Shown here: piece by piece, positions 44,269 to 49,303 of the stretch
How positions within the stretch are numbered: the stretch's first letter is position 1
Layout: each line of letters starts with the position of its first letter
Assembly: GCA_947581795.1 (NCBI GenBank)
Contig: CANPVS010000009.1
Span: forward strand, 1-64,000
Direction of reading: 5' to 3'
DNA from: an uncultured Oscillospiraceae bacterium
GTDB taxonomy: Bacteria > Bacillota > Clostridia > Oscillospirales > Oscillospiraceae
Length of the DNA stretch: 64,000 nucleotides
Notes under the pieces: model-generated
What the model saw: only the letters and a program-made list of their open reading frames with translations
What the model was told of the DNA's origin: nothing
Database searches by the model: none
Made by a program: the position numbers and the translations under genes

Positions 44269-45837
44269 ATGCCCGACAAAGAGCCCGTTTCCCGCAATAC
44301 GAAGCCCCGGCGCGGAGTTTTCAGCGTCGTGTTCGGCCGCGGCGCCGTGGCGGCCATATTGGTGCTGATCCAGTTCTTCTTCCTGTTCGTGCTCTTCTTC
44401 CGGCTGCAGCGGTCCAGCATTTATCTGTCCTGGGCGGTGAGCCTGTTGGCGGGGCTGTTTCTGGTGTATCTGCTCAACACCGGCTCCGAATCCACCATCA
44501 AGCTGACCTGGTGCGTCATCATCGCCCTGGTGCCGGTGTTCGGGGTGCTCCTGTATCTTTTCATCTCCTTCGATTTCGGCCACCGAGCGGAGCAGCGCAT
44601 CTTCCGGGTCCAGGTGGCGGAGAGCGCCCCCTATATGCCCGCCCAGACCGAGCTCATGGAGCGGCTCAAAGAAGCGGAGCCGGAGCTCTACCCTCTGGCG
44701 GTGTACGCCGCCCGGCGCAACGGCTTCGCCGTGTATGAGAACACCGCCGCCCGGTACTTCCCCCAGGGGGAGGACAAATACGCCGCCATGCTGGAGGAGC
44801 TGGAGAAGGCGAAGGAATTCATCTTCCTGGAGTACTTCATCGTGGAAGAGGGAGAGATGTGGGACGCGGTGCTGGACATCCTGGCCCGGAAGGTCCGGGA
44901 GGGCGTGGACGTGCGGATGCTCTACGACGGCACCTGCTCCCTGCTGCGCCTGCCGGCCAGCTATCCTAAAAAGCTCCGGGCCCTGGGCATCCAGTGCAAG
45001 GTCTTTGCCCCCATCCGGCCCTTCATCTCCACCAGCTACAACAACCGGGACCACCGGAAGATTCTGGTCATCGACGGAAAGGTGGGCTTCACCGGCGGGG
45101 TGAACCTGGCGGACGAGTACATCAACCGCCGGGAGAAGTTCGGCCACTGGAAGGACGCCGCCGTCATGCTCTCCGGCGACGGGGTGCGCAGCATGACCCT
45201 CATGTTCCTGCGGCTGTGGAACGCCGGGGAGAAGGTGCAGGAGTACGCCCCCTATCTCAACGATCCCACGCCCCCTGCCAATGACAGCCAGGGCTACGTG
45301 ATCCCCTACGGGGACAGCCCGATGGACGACGAGCGCACCGGGGAGATGGTCTACCTGCACATGATCAACACCGCCCGGGAGTACGTGTATATCATGACCC
45401 CCTATCTCATCCTGGACGGGGAGATGGCCACCGCCATCACCTTCGCCGCCCACCGGGGGGTGGACGTGCGGATCATCCTGCCCGGCATCCCGGACAAGAA
45501 GTACGCCAACCTCCTGGCCAAGGGCCACTACAAGGCCCTCACCGAGGCGGGGGTAAAGCTCTACGAATACACCCCCGGCTTTATCCATTCCAAGGTGTTT
45601 TTGGCCGACGGCGTCTCCGCCGTGGTGGGCACCATCAACCTGGACTACCGGAGCCTCTACATGAACTTCGAGTGCGCCGCGTACCTCTACAAGTCCCCGG
45701 CCCTGCCGGATATCCTCAAAGACTTCGAGGACACCTTCCCCCAGTGCCGGGCCGTCACCATGGAGACGGTAAAGAATATGAAGCTCTCCACCCGGCTGGC
45801 CGCGGCCCTTCTGCGGGTCGCCGCCCCCCTCATGTGA
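44269..45837 (+). CDS. cls: Cardiolipin synthase (PLD family)
   Basis: Two HKD motifs: NRDHRKILVIDGKVGFTGGVNL and FIHSKVFLADGVSAVVGTINLDYRS. Confidence 0.93.
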   Translation: MPDKEPVSRNTKPRRGVFSVVFGRGAVAAILVLIQFFFLFVLFFRLQRSSIYLSWAVSLLAGLFLVYLLNTGSESTIKLTWCVIIALVPVFGVLLYLFISFDFGHRAEQRIFRVQVAESAPYMPAQTELMERLKEAEPELYPLAVYAARRNGFAVYENTAARYFPQGEDKYAAMLEELEKAKEFIFLEYFIVEEGEMWDAVLDILARKVREGVDVRMLYDGTCSLLRLPASYPKKLRALGIQCKVFAPIRPFISTSYNNRDHRKILVIDGKVGFTGGVNLADEYINRREKFGHWKDAAVMLSGDGVRSMTLMFLRLWNAGEKVQEYAPYLNDPTPPANDSQGYVIPYGDSPMDDERTGEMVYLHMINTAREYVYIMTPYLILDGEMATAITFAAHRGVDVRIILPGIPDKKYANLLAKGHYKALTEAGVKLYEYTPGFIHSKVFLADGVSAVVGTINLDYRSLYMNFECAAYLYKSPALPDILKDFEDTFPQCRAVTMETVKNMKLSTRLAAALLRVAAPLM

Positions 45838-45851
45838 GAAAGGAACCGTAT

Positions 45852-45902
45852 ATGATCGTTTTACCGCTTGCCATCGTCTCCGCTCCATGCAAGGCCGACT
45901 AG
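45852..45902 (+). CDS. Leader peptide MIVLPLAIVSAPCKAD upstream of MFS gene
   Basis: GAGAAAGGAACCGTAT-ATG, TAG stop, followed by stacked inverted repeats. Confidence 0.6.
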   Translation: MIVLPLAIVSAPCKAD

Positions 45903-46013
45903 GATAGGGGCTGCATGGAGCGATATAGCTGACGGGAGGCGAACACACATCAGCTATTCCTATCCTGCCGGCTTTGCTTCTCTGACCTACACAAGATCAA
46001 AAAGGAGCAAAGC
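45881..46013 (+). promoter_or_regulatory. Translational attenuator (hairpins H1-H3, SD sequestered in H3)
   Basis: H1 CGCTCCATGCA/TGCATGGAGCG; H2 ATAGCTGA/TCAGCTAT; alternative AGGATAGG/CCTATCCT; H3 GCTTTGCTTCT/AGGAGCAAAGC contains the SD. Confidence 0.65.
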
Positions 46014-46015
46014 AA

Positions 46016-47314
46016 ATGAACAGAATATCCCGGGGCCTCAAGGATATGGGGCCCTTTCTTCTCCTGTGGAGCACCCAGGCCCTCTCCGGGCTGGGCAGCG
46101 CCATGACCAGTTACGCCCTGGTGCTCTGGTCCTACGGCGAGCACGGCTCGGCCCTTCGCACCGCCCTTTTGATGGTGTGCTCCTACACGCCCTATGTGGT
46201 GTGCAGCGTCTTCGCCGGGGCTCTCTCGGACCGGTGGGACAAAAAACGCACCATGCTCTGCTGCGACGGTCTGGCCGCGGCGGGCACCATGGCGGTGGCC
46301 CTGCTGCTGCGTACAGGCCGCCTCCAGGTGGGGCATCTCTATCTCATCAACGCCCTCATGGGCCTGATGAACACGGTCCAGCAGCCCGCCTCAGAGGTGG
46401 CTGTGACCCTGCTGCTGCCGGAGAAATACTACCAGCGGGCCGGGGGCCTGAGCCAGCTTTCCCAGTCCGTGACCAGCCTCCTCACGCCCCTTCTCACCAC
46501 GGCGGTGATGGGCCTTTGGGGCATGGGCGCGGTGCTGGTCACAGACCTGGCCACCTTCCTTCTCGCGGCGCTGGCGCTGCTCTTCTTCATCCGCATTCCC
46601 TCAGCCCCCAGCGCCGGGGAGAAGCGGGAGAGTCTGTGGAAAGAGGCGGGCGAGGGGCTCGCCTATCTGCGCCGGGAGCCGGGCGTCGCCCACATGATCG
46701 TCTTTCTCGCCGCCGTCAATCTGGTGGCGTCCATGTACGACGCCGCCTTCCCCGCCATGCTCCTGTCCCGGTCCGGCGGCGGACAGCGTGTCATGGGCCT
46801 GGTGAGCGCCGCGGCGGGTCTCGCCACTTTGATGGGCAGCATTCTGGCCGCGGCCCTGCCCGCGCCGAAGCGCCGGGTCCCGGTGATCTGGTGGTGCCTG
46901 CTGTTCTCCCTGGGCACGGAGAACTTCCTCCTGGCCTTCGGAAAGAGCCCGGCGGCGTGGTGCCTGGGGTCCTTTCTCGGCTGGGCGCCTATCCCCCTTA
47001 TGAACGCCGACATGAGCGCCCTGTTCCGGCTGCGCATTCCCCTGGCCGTCCAGGGCCGGGTCTACGCCGTGCGCAACTCCCTGCAGTTTTTCACCATCCC
47101 CGCCGGGTACCTGCTGGGCGGGGCGCTGGTGGACCGGGTGTTCGAGCCCTACATGGCCGGACCGGGGGCGGACGCCCTGCCGGCGGTCCTCTTCGGCACA
47201 GGCAAGGGCAGCGGCGCGGCCATGTTTTTCGCCCTTCTGGGCGTGCTGGGCGTGAGCGTGTGCCTCTGCTTCCGGCGGGACAGGGCCATGGAACATTTGG
47301 ACGAAACAGAATAA
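46016..47314 (+). CDS. MFS transporter (macrolide-efflux/DHA3-like)
   Basis: MNRISRGLKDMGPFLLLWSTQALSGLGSAMTSYALVLWSYGEHGSALRTALLMVCSYTPYVVCSVFAGALSDRWDKKRTM. Confidence 0.88.
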   Translation: MNRISRGLKDMGPFLLLWSTQALSGLGSAMTSYALVLWSYGEHGSALRTALLMVCSYTPYVVCSVFAGALSDRWDKKRTMLCCDGLAAAGTMAVALLLRTGRLQVGHLYLINALMGLMNTVQQPASEVAVTLLLPEKYYQRAGGLSQLSQSVTSLLTPLLTTAVMGLWGMGAVLVTDLATFLLAALALLFFIRIPSAPSAGEKRESLWKEAGEGLAYLRREPGVAHMIVFLAAVNLVASMYDAAFPAMLLSRSGGGQRVMGLVSAAAGLATLMGSILAAALPAPKRRVPVIWWCLLFSLGTENFLLAFGKSPAAWCLGSFLGWAPIPLMNADMSALFRLRIPLAVQGRVYAVRNSLQFFTIPAGYLLGGALVDRVFEPYMAGPGADALPAVLFGTGKGSGAAMFFALLGVLGVSVCLCFRRDRAMEHLDETE

Positions 47315-47350: not shown

Positions 47351-47443
47351 GCGCCGCGCCTGTCCGCACAAACAAGTCCCTCTCTGTATAGAATGGAGCG
47401 AGGCAATCAAGCCTCACTGAATTTTACAGAGAGGGGTATACAC

Positions 47444-49303
47444 ATGAGAATACGTCGTATCGTGACCGGGTGTATAGCCGGTCTCTATTTATTTCTTCGC
47501 GCGGCCTCCGGGTCCCCCGCCGTCCCCGGCAGCGGGCCGGTGGTCATCGACAGCCCCGACGCCCTTATCGCCTTCAGCGAGGCGGTCAGCGCCGGGCAGA
47601 CCTACGCCGGCCAGACCGTGGTCCTGGCCGGGGACATCGACATGGCGGGCCGGGCCTTCGGCCCCATCGGCCAGCGGCCGGGCGGGGACGGGTCGGGCGC
47701 CTTCCGGGGCGTCTTCGACGGCCAGGGCCACGCCATCCGGCGGCTCACGGTCACCGGCGGCAGCGGCGAGGCGGGCCTGTTCGCCATCCTGGACGGGGCC
47801 GTGGTCAAAAACCTGCGCCTGGAGGTGTCCGTAAGCGGCCAGGGCCAGACCGCCGTGGGCGGACTGGCGGGCCGGATGGTCAACACCGGCCTCTTCAATG
47901 TGGCCGTGGACGGCAATGTGACCGCCGGGTCCTGGGCTGTCCCCGGGGACGGGGTCCTGGCCGCCGGCGGCATCGCCGGCCGGGCGGAGGGCCGGACCGT
48001 GCTGGACCGGTGCGCCGCCCGGGGCTCCCTGGGCGCGGCGGGCTCTTTCAGCGCCGCGGTCTATGCCGGCGGCGCCTTCGGATACCTGCAGGGCGCCACG
48101 GTCACCAACTGCTACTCCACCGCCTACCTTTTCGTAAACGACGCGGGGATCACCGCCGGCGGCTTCGCCGGGTATCTGGCGGACAGCGCCCTTCGGGACA
48201 GCTACGCCGCCTCAGGCATGGTCACCGGCGCCAACACCGCCGGGGCCTTCGCCGGTCTGACGGCGGGCTCGTCTTTCAGCAACGTCTGGCACGATGGGGA
48301 GCTGACCGCGCCCCTGCCCGGCGCGGGCGGCGTCTTCAGCGGAGTCATACAGGGCGCGCCCACCGCCCAGATGCAGAGCGCTCCCTTCCCCGGCCAGCTC
48401 AGCGAGGCCTTCTATCAGGCCGCCCCGGGGCAGAACAACGGCTATCCGGTCCTGGACTTCGAGGCCATCATTATCCCCACGGAGGCCCCGGCCCCCACGG
48501 AGGAGCCCACTCCTGTCCCTACCGACACGCCGGCTCCTACGGAGGGACCGACGCCAGTCCCCACTGACACGCCAATTCCTACCGATGAACCAACGCCGGT
48601 CCCCACTGACACGCCAATTCCTACCGATGAACCAACGCCACTCCCCACCGACGAGCCTATTCCTACCGGGGAACCGTCGCCCGTCCCCACTGACGAGCCT
48701 ATTCCCACCGGGGAACCGTCGCCCGTCCCCACTGACGAGCCAATTCCCACCGGGGAACCGTCGCCGCTCCCCACTGACACGCCAATTCCTACCGATGAAC
48801 CGATGCCAGTCCCCACTGACGAACCAATTCCTACCGATGAACCGTCACCCGTCCCTACCGACAAACCAATTCCCACCGAAGAGCCGTCGCCCGTCCCCAC
48901 TGACACACCAATTCCTACTGATGAACCGTCGCCACTCCCCACTGACACGCCAATTCCCACCGAAGAGCCGTCGCCCGTCCCCACTGACACACCAATTCCT
49001 ACTGAGAACCCGTCGCCAGTCCCCACCGACACACCGGCTCCCACGGAGGCTCCGCTGGAGAGCCCGGTCCCGCCGGTGACCAGCGAACCCTATGACCCCA
49101 CAGCGGCCACCCCCGCCCCCACCGGGGCCCCGGCGCAGCCCGCCGGGTCATGGTCCGGCCCCACAGGACCGGACGCGTCCACCACTGCCGCCGGGCCCAC
49201 GGCCCCCCGGACGGCGGATGACGCCCACGCCCTGCCGTGGCTGGCGCTGTTCCTGGCCCTGACAGCGGCCTTCACTGCCATTGTTCGGAGATACAGAAGA
49301 TAA
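47444..49303 (+). CDS. Secreted/surface GLUG-motif protein with Pro/Thr-rich repeat stalk and C-terminal TM anchor
   Basis: Signal-like N-term MRIRRIVTGCIAGLYLFLRAASG; GLUG-like GGLAGRM, GGIAGRA, GGFAGYL units; 14-aa repeats; ALFLALTAAFTAIVRRYRR tail. Confidence 0.75.
   Translation: MRIRRIVTGCIAGLYLFLRAASGSPAVPGSGPVVIDSPDALIAFSEAVSAGQTYAGQTVVLAGDIDMAGRAFGPIGQRPGGDGSGAFRGVFDGQGHAIRRLTVTGGSGEAGLFAILDGAVVKNLRLEVSVSGQGQTAVGGLAGRMVNTGLFNVAVDGNVTAGSWAVPGDGVLAAGGIAGRAEGRTVLDRCAARGSLGAAGSFSAAVYAGGAFGYLQGATVTNCYSTAYLFVNDAGITAGGFAGYLADSALRDSYAASGMVTGANTAGAFAGLTAGSSFSNVWHDGELTAPLPGAGGVFSGVIQGAPTAQMQSAPFPGQLSEAFYQAAPGQNNGYPVLDFEAIIIPTEAPAPTEEPTPVPTDTPAPTEGPTPVPTDTPIPTDEPTPVPTDTPIPTDEPTPLPTDEPIPTGEPSPVPTDEPIPTGEPSPVPTDEPIPTGEPSPLPTDTPIPTDEPMPVPTDEPIPTDEPSPVPTDKPIPTEEPSPVPTDTPIPTDEPSPLPTDTPIPTEEPSPVPTDTPIPTENPSPVPTDTPAPTEAPLESPVPPVTSEPYDPTAATPAPTGAPAQPAGSWSGPTGPDASTTAAGPTAPRTADDAHALPWLALFLALTAAFTAIVRRYRR
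48491..49036 (+). repeat. Tandem 42-bp coding repeat, about 13 units
   Basis: Consensus IPTDEPSPVPTDTP. Confidence 0.9.

Follow-up and report, generated by a model that had tools for sequence, protein, structure and literature searches.

In ermC, a leader open reading frame (uORF) with its own Shine-Dalgarno (SD) sequence encodes the peptide ErmCL; ribosome stalling rearranges hairpins and exposes the SD, and regulation is translational (PMC13410324, PMC5418344). The streptococcal mef/mel (msrD) leader encodes MefAL (MTASMRLR), which carries the +x+ macrolide-arrest motif, and includes a transcription terminator (PMC4335068, PMC10314930). Translational attenuators of chloramphenicol acetyltransferases and exporters have been tabulated for cat, cmlA, and fexA (PMC5418344). 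In C. difficile, the ABC-F gene cplR is controlled by a uORF consisting only of MR[I/M]; its SD lies in a hairpin, the leader includes a terminator that ends in polyU, and translational attenuation has been shown experimentally (PMC10201436).

The leader described here was found in a 64,000-nucleotide stretch of DNA from an uncultured Oscillospiraceae bacterium (the window). It has the features of erm- and cat-type attenuators, namely, a uORF with its own SD, a second SD held in a hairpin, an exclusive alternative pairing, and no terminator. Like ermC, it combines a uORF with its own SD, a hairpin rearrangement that is predicted to follow stalling, and probable control at the level of translation. 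It differs from ErmCL (MGIFSIFVIS) in its peptide, which reads L-[CAM]-I-[AVD] before A-P-C-K-V; an IFVI-type arrest sequence is absent from the uORF consensus, and the likeness to ErmCL is confined to hydrophobic residues. It further differs from ermC in that the anti-SD is captured by the uORF's own last codons and stop codon and that the regulated gene is usually an efflux pump of the major facilitator superfamily (MFS). With mef/mel it shares a leader peptide, predicted to stall, upstream of a Mef-type MFS pump; in contrast to MefAL with its +x+ motif and terminator, there is no RLR and U-tracts are few. Neither the Arg/Lys-X-Arg/Lys motif of MefAL and ErmDL (+x+) in the uORF consensus nor a terminator was found. 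A translational attenuator before chloramphenicol acetyltransferase (CAT) and exporter genes recalls cat, cmlA, and fexA, but here one three-helix switch is common to CAT, MFS, Cfr, and Vat genes (cat and cmlA were compared by description). The cplR leader is similar in being a clostridial uORF before an ABC-F resistance gene with the SD in a hairpin, and differs in its MR[I/M] uORF and polyU terminator. The general principle is already known from the ermC and cat attenuators (PMC13410324, PMC5418344). Three aspects appear to be new: the peptides, the role of the uORF end as an anti-anti-SD, and a single switch common to unrelated resistance genes. Rfam 15 gave no match in the window at the gathering score, and in six homologous loci, with E values up to 5 allowed, there were only three matches, all at chance level. 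Among the hits listed in a literature search that took in few subscription journals, no paper described the LxI[AVD].. peptides or the MKRGLD.. peptides discussed below.

All features of the locus lie on the forward strand. The upstream gene, cls, encodes a cardiolipin synthase (44269 to 45837; TIGR04265 above cut-off), and its stop codon is immediately followed by the SD region of the uORF, GAAAGGAACCGTAT (45838 to 45851), in which AAAGGA is the SD. The uORF runs from ATG to TAG over 16 codons (45852 to 45902) and encodes MIVLPLAIVSAPCKAD; its distance from the cls stop is 14 nt, and another 113 nt lie between its end and the ATG of the regulated gene (46016 to 47314). No sigma-70-like promoter was found within 45300 to 46100, and since the spacing to cls is only 14 nt, the leader is perhaps cotranscribed with it. 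According to its profile matches, the 432-amino-acid product is an MFS efflux protein (Pfam MFS_1, 4e-24; NCBIfam TIGR00900, 1.4e-47; Mef(A), 4.7e-26). Its score against Mef(A) was 91.8 bits at a cut-off of 675, and curated Mef cut-offs were not reached; by sequence, the protein is a distant relative of Mef(A). Plasmid-borne spread was rejected, as only three plasmid records contained an MFS relative, each with <60% identity. Downstream of the MFS gene, the window contains a 636-amino-acid open reading frame (47393 to 49303) with a subthreshold GLUG match and long PTDEPIPT-type repeats.

Searching species genomes with the MFS protein yielded 79 loci, 76 of which were near enough for use (L002 to L077). 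A short uORF with a common ending was present upstream of the MFS gene in 75 of these 76, the exception being L058; in L014, L015, L023, L073, and L076, it was placed by hand. In most homologous loci the uORF is preceded by an SD. The 16-residue uORF with its own SD that the preliminary description had read from the window alone is present there as described. The consensus is L-[CAM]-I-[AVD]-x-A-P-C-[KR]-V-stop. If the GCT codon in the first arm of the leader's first helix is numbered 0 and upstream codons are counted negatively, codon -5 encodes Leu in 72 of the 76 loci (window included), codon -3 Ile in 67, and codon -2 Ala, Val, or Asp in 68. Apart from the few non-Leu loci, the Leu at -5 is spelled with all six codons (CTT 21, CTC 21, TTA 15, CTG 10, CTA 3, and TTG 2), and the TTR bias of the Leu codons (Fisher p 5e-7) is indicative only, since the loci share ancestry. 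Over codons -5 to -2, pN/pS was 0.51 in the uORF frame; the two alternative frames gave 1.54 and 0.76. The varied spelling of Leu and the lowest pN/pS in the uORF's own frame indicated that the peptide is under selection, and this frame-specific selection suggests that the uORF is translated. In the window, CTT GCC ATC GTC (Leu-Ala-Ile-Val, codons -5 to -2; 45867 to 45878) are the putative sensor codons, both by their frame-specific conservation and by the open fold obtained with the P site on codon -3 (see below). The following A-P-C-K-V stretch varies together with the first helix (ALC and APR variants) and therefore seems to be shaped by the RNA rather than by the peptide. A role of the Cys and Pro codons as a starvation sensor was rejected on the same ground, because A-P-C-K changes along with this helix.

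Three helices make up the leader RNA. H1 pairs segment a (CGCTCCATGCA, 45881 to 45891), which contains the uORF codons for Ala-Pro-Cys, with segment a' (TGCATGGAGCG, 45912 to 45922); this is the 11-bp hairpin of which one arm had been noticed in the 3' half of the uORF. H3 pairs GCTTTGCTTCT (45971 to 45981) with AGGAGCAAAGC (46003 to 46013), whose segment d is the MFS SD, and the proposal that this SD is buried there holds at the same positions. The alternative pair AGGATAGG/CCTATCCT (45901 to 45908/45959 to 45966), which had been taken to start at the uORF stop, is present as well, but its extent had been underestimated: with GCAAGGCCG/CGGCTTTGC (45889 to 45897/45969 to 45977), it forms H2, with 17 bp together. 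The 5' arm of H2 (GCAAGGCCG plus AGGATAGG, segment b, 45889 to 45908) is the uORF end with its stop codon, and its 3' arm (CCTATCCT plus CGGCTTTGC, segment b', 45959 to 45977) includes the anti-SD. The leader as a whole (45840 to 46030) folded at -62.9 kcal/mol versus -48.75 ± 4.07 for shuffled sequences (z, -3.5), and none of 200 shuffles was as low.

An alignment of 63 homologous leaders was used for covariation of H1 (GCUCCAUGCA with UGCAUGGAGC) and H3 (GACUUUGC with GCAAAGUC, adjoining the SD GGAG). In these two helices, 96.6% of alignment cells were paired and 10 pairs had changes on both sides; compensatory both-side cells numbered 53 versus 11.8 in shuffles (0/500 shuffles). For H2, whose strands read GCAAGGU..GAGGA (uORF end and stop codon) and UCCUC..ACUUUGC, 91.5% of cells were paired, with 44 both-side cells versus 16.7 in shuffles (0/500). 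H2 and H3 are mutually exclusive because both need the same strand, the anti-SD; H1 and H2 overlap as well. In addition, GGAGC of the MFS SD (46004 to 46008) can pair with GCTCC of the uORF (45882 to 45886). This pairing was compatible in 99% of cells, and as its positions are nearly invariant, covariation neither supports nor rejects it.

No homologous locus was seen to keep the hairpins and lack the uORF, a combination that the preliminary description had held to speak against an attenuator, and the reverse was found in three leaders of simpler form. In L006 (VILCIAIAPCKVN) and L010 (VILCIASAPCKIN), the uORF is followed by a single hairpin, the 3' arm of which (a') is the MFS SD, and L108 has the peptide MINCIAYAPCR plus one hairpin, which likewise contains the SD. 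These leaders bear on the reading that the RNA is a riboswitch that binds a small molecule directly, the uORF being incidental. The strong, covarying structure and the topological possibility of an H1/H2 pseudoknot would suit such an RNA, but all three simple forms retain the uORF peptide without H2 and H3. Selection on the peptide also acts at codons outside the covarying helices, from one regulated gene to another the sensor peptide changes but the RNA helices do not (see below), and Rfam gave no match; we therefore regard a riboswitch as highly improbable.

Transcription attenuation, with H2 or H3 as an intrinsic terminator and the uORF setting read-through as in mef/msr(D), or with both levels in use as in cplR, is a further reading. 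A few leaders have such runs after the anti-SD, and terminators are used by mef (PMC4335068, PMC10314930) and by cplR (PMC10201436). However, at least five U within 10 nt of the anti-SD occurred in only 4 of 68 leaders, 48 of the 68, the window's included, had three or fewer, and a terminator scan of the window leader itself was empty. Moreover, the covarying 3' arm of H3 holds the SD, and if H2 were the terminator, an early stall would turn the gene off. A terminator was rejected as the main mechanism on account of the rare U-runs and the empty scan, and transcription attenuation in any of these forms is unlikely. The absence of a U-tract, from which translational control had first been suspected, is shared by most leaders.

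The effect of ribosome position on the translational switch was modeled with the 3' edge of the ribosome set, by assumption, at +15 from the P site, and all fold results are model calculations. Full-length equilibrium folds with a masked ribosome gave no clean switch: H3 was preferred in many loci, and the median SD accessibility was about 0.5 (0.00 in the window with the P site on codon -2). Because these folds favor H3, release of the SD must depend on H2 forming first, during transcription. Since H3 still won under a masked ribosome, full-length equilibrium folding was dropped as a switching test. In a second model, chosen once the full-length folds had proved uninformative, the transcripts were truncated at the end of the anti-SD so as to follow the course of RNA synthesis. 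In 68 such transcripts, the median probability of b' pairing with the uORF end was 1.00 with the P site on codon -3, 0.52 on -2, 0.10 on -1, and 0.00 on codons 0 and 4 (the last codon). The model thus gives the open state only if the ribosome halts before it reaches the H1 arm, within the conserved part of the peptide; a ribosome at the stop codon leaves the anti-SD free, and H3 can close. Without a ribosome, the truncated transcripts often preferred H2 over H1 (median b'/uORF-end pairing, 0.93). H1 alone thus fails to explain the off state, as the ribosome-free anti-SD is mostly tied to the uORF end, and the ribosome-free off state rests on the nearly invariant pairing of the SD with the uORF arm, which lacks covariation. 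With b' tied to the uORF end and the uORF free of ribosomes, pairing of the SD with the uORF arm came to 84%, and the mean unpaired probability of the SD rose from 0.07 to 0.55 when a ribosome was placed on codon -3. For the window leader, this kinetic-trap calculation gave an SD accessibility of only 0.36 with the ribosome on that codon.

The selection on the peptide and the covariation of both the SD helix and its competitor support the earlier proposal that the leader is a translational attenuator whose peptide stalls the ribosome, as far as comparative analysis reaches, and we consider it very probable that the leader controls the MFS gene in this way. In the absence of drug, ribosomes would translate all 16 codons of the uORF and, on reaching its stop, mask segment b; b' would then pair with the MFS SD (H3), and the gene would be off. 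An untranslated leader would also be off, either through H1 and H3 or through pairing of the uORF GCUCC with the SD GGAGC. A ribosome-targeting compound is predicted to stall the ribosome with its P site at about codon -3 or -2 (Ile, or Ala/Val/Asp, of L-x-I-[AVD]). The stalled ribosome would cover the H1 arm and leave segment b free to capture b' (H2), upon which both SD locks would be gone and the pump could be made.

A covariance model of the leader (R1) was searched in overlapping samples of genomes from the class (391), the phylum (398), and the order (245). It matched in 31, 6, and 30 genomes, respectively, some of the weak matches being due to chance; by inspection, L107, L144, L167 to L169, L171, and L172 were dropped as chance-like. 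Most leaders were located upstream of MFS genes. Others preceded CatA-like acetyltransferases (L100, L101, L103, and L163; 210 to 214 bits, the CatA cut-off being 270) and Cfr methyltransferases above the cut-off (L110 and L164). In L143, L109, and L106, the first gene behind the leader encodes a small protein of the CD3324 family, and the next one a Vat-like acetyltransferase (L143), an ABC-F protein (L109), or some other protein (L106). Leaders also preceded S-adenosylmethionine (SAM) methyltransferases without an NCBIfam match (L105:1635-2390 and L170:1665-2444), possibly rRNA methyltransferases, and ceramidase-like proteins (PF04734) on the reverse strand (L161:230-1501, below the Pfam cut-off, and L166:239-1501), which are candidates for unrecognized resistance functions. 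H1 and the helix of the uORF end with the anti-SD could be drawn in all non-MFS cases examined.

These associations bear on a reading in which the leader senses cellular translation trouble, such as amino acid shortage, polyamine, or another metabolite, and not an antibiotic. The MFS protein has no proven substrate and lies far from the Mef(A) cut-off, and two leaders stand before ceramidase-like genes, as metabolic sensing might have it. On the other hand, the uORF contains no run of any one codon, and the same switch is found upstream of CatA-like, Cfr, Vat-like, and ABC-F-linked genes; sensing of this kind seems improbable. The occurrence of the switch before such genes, which are resistance genes against ribosome-acting drugs, supports the drug-responsive attenuator. 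Among potential inducers, the evidence speaks neither for nor against the macrolides named in the preliminary description, and the position upstream of CatA-like and Cfr genes points also to drugs of the peptidyl transferase center.

The sensor peptide differed with the type of gene. MFS pumps are preceded by LxI[AVD] and CatA-like genes by MKRGLD; the Cfr leaders have VTH[ND][KR]LHAK, which is read from a shifted frame. CatA-like leaders encode MKRGLD[AN]APC[EK]A, except for L100 (MKFCIAVFPCKA), and the DNA pattern for MKRGLDxA occurred three times in the 391 class genomes, each time upstream of a CAT gene. In one of these three, L129, a single SD hairpin replaces the three-helix switch. Within the class sample, MKRGLD leaders (L101, L103, L163, L129, and L175 to L177) were confined to CatA-like genes. 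The Cfr leaders, two cases only, read CTCCATGCAAAG in another frame (..VTHNRLHAKSD and ..VTHDKLHAKPG). We give roughly even chances to the idea that the leader serves gut Clostridia as a portable attenuator cassette, in which one three-helix switch around GCTCCATGCAARG is retained and the sensor peptide is swapped to suit the drug that the downstream gene deals with. If so, it would provide new drug-specific arrest peptides and flag the ceramidase-like proteins and SAM methyltransferases as candidate resistance genes; the leader could be used as a guilt-by-association tag for unrecognized ones. Since its RNA part is constant and its peptide differs between resistance genes, it provides a natural series in which to ask which nascent peptides sense which ribosome drugs. 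Confirmed stalling would add a new family to the few known arrest peptides, in commensal gut Clostridia, where inducible resistance has been little studied.

In L102 and L142, the leader is intact and is followed by apparent remnants of a deleted MFS gene, indicating that the leader can outlive its gene. The leader of the window also contains the remnant of a MITE-like element, TA-GCTGACGGGAGGCGAACACACATCAGC-TA (45926 to 45956), between H1 and the anti-SD. It shares an end with an element of 273 bp with TA flanks and 17-bp inverted ends elsewhere in the same genome (C34:18945-19217, L174). The hairpin ATAGCTGA/TCAGCTAT (45925 to 45932/45950 to 45957), listed in the preliminary description among the leader's helices, does exist, but was rejected as part of the switch, being a nonconserved MITE remnant. 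The leaders of L002 and L003 are without the element, whereas L066 carries a copy of 273 bp (92% identical) and L062 one of 180 bp. The switch apparently tolerates such insertions in its loops. Both these long copies and shorter remnants were observed in leader loops of several genomes, including L066, L062, L061, and L004, and at more than one position.
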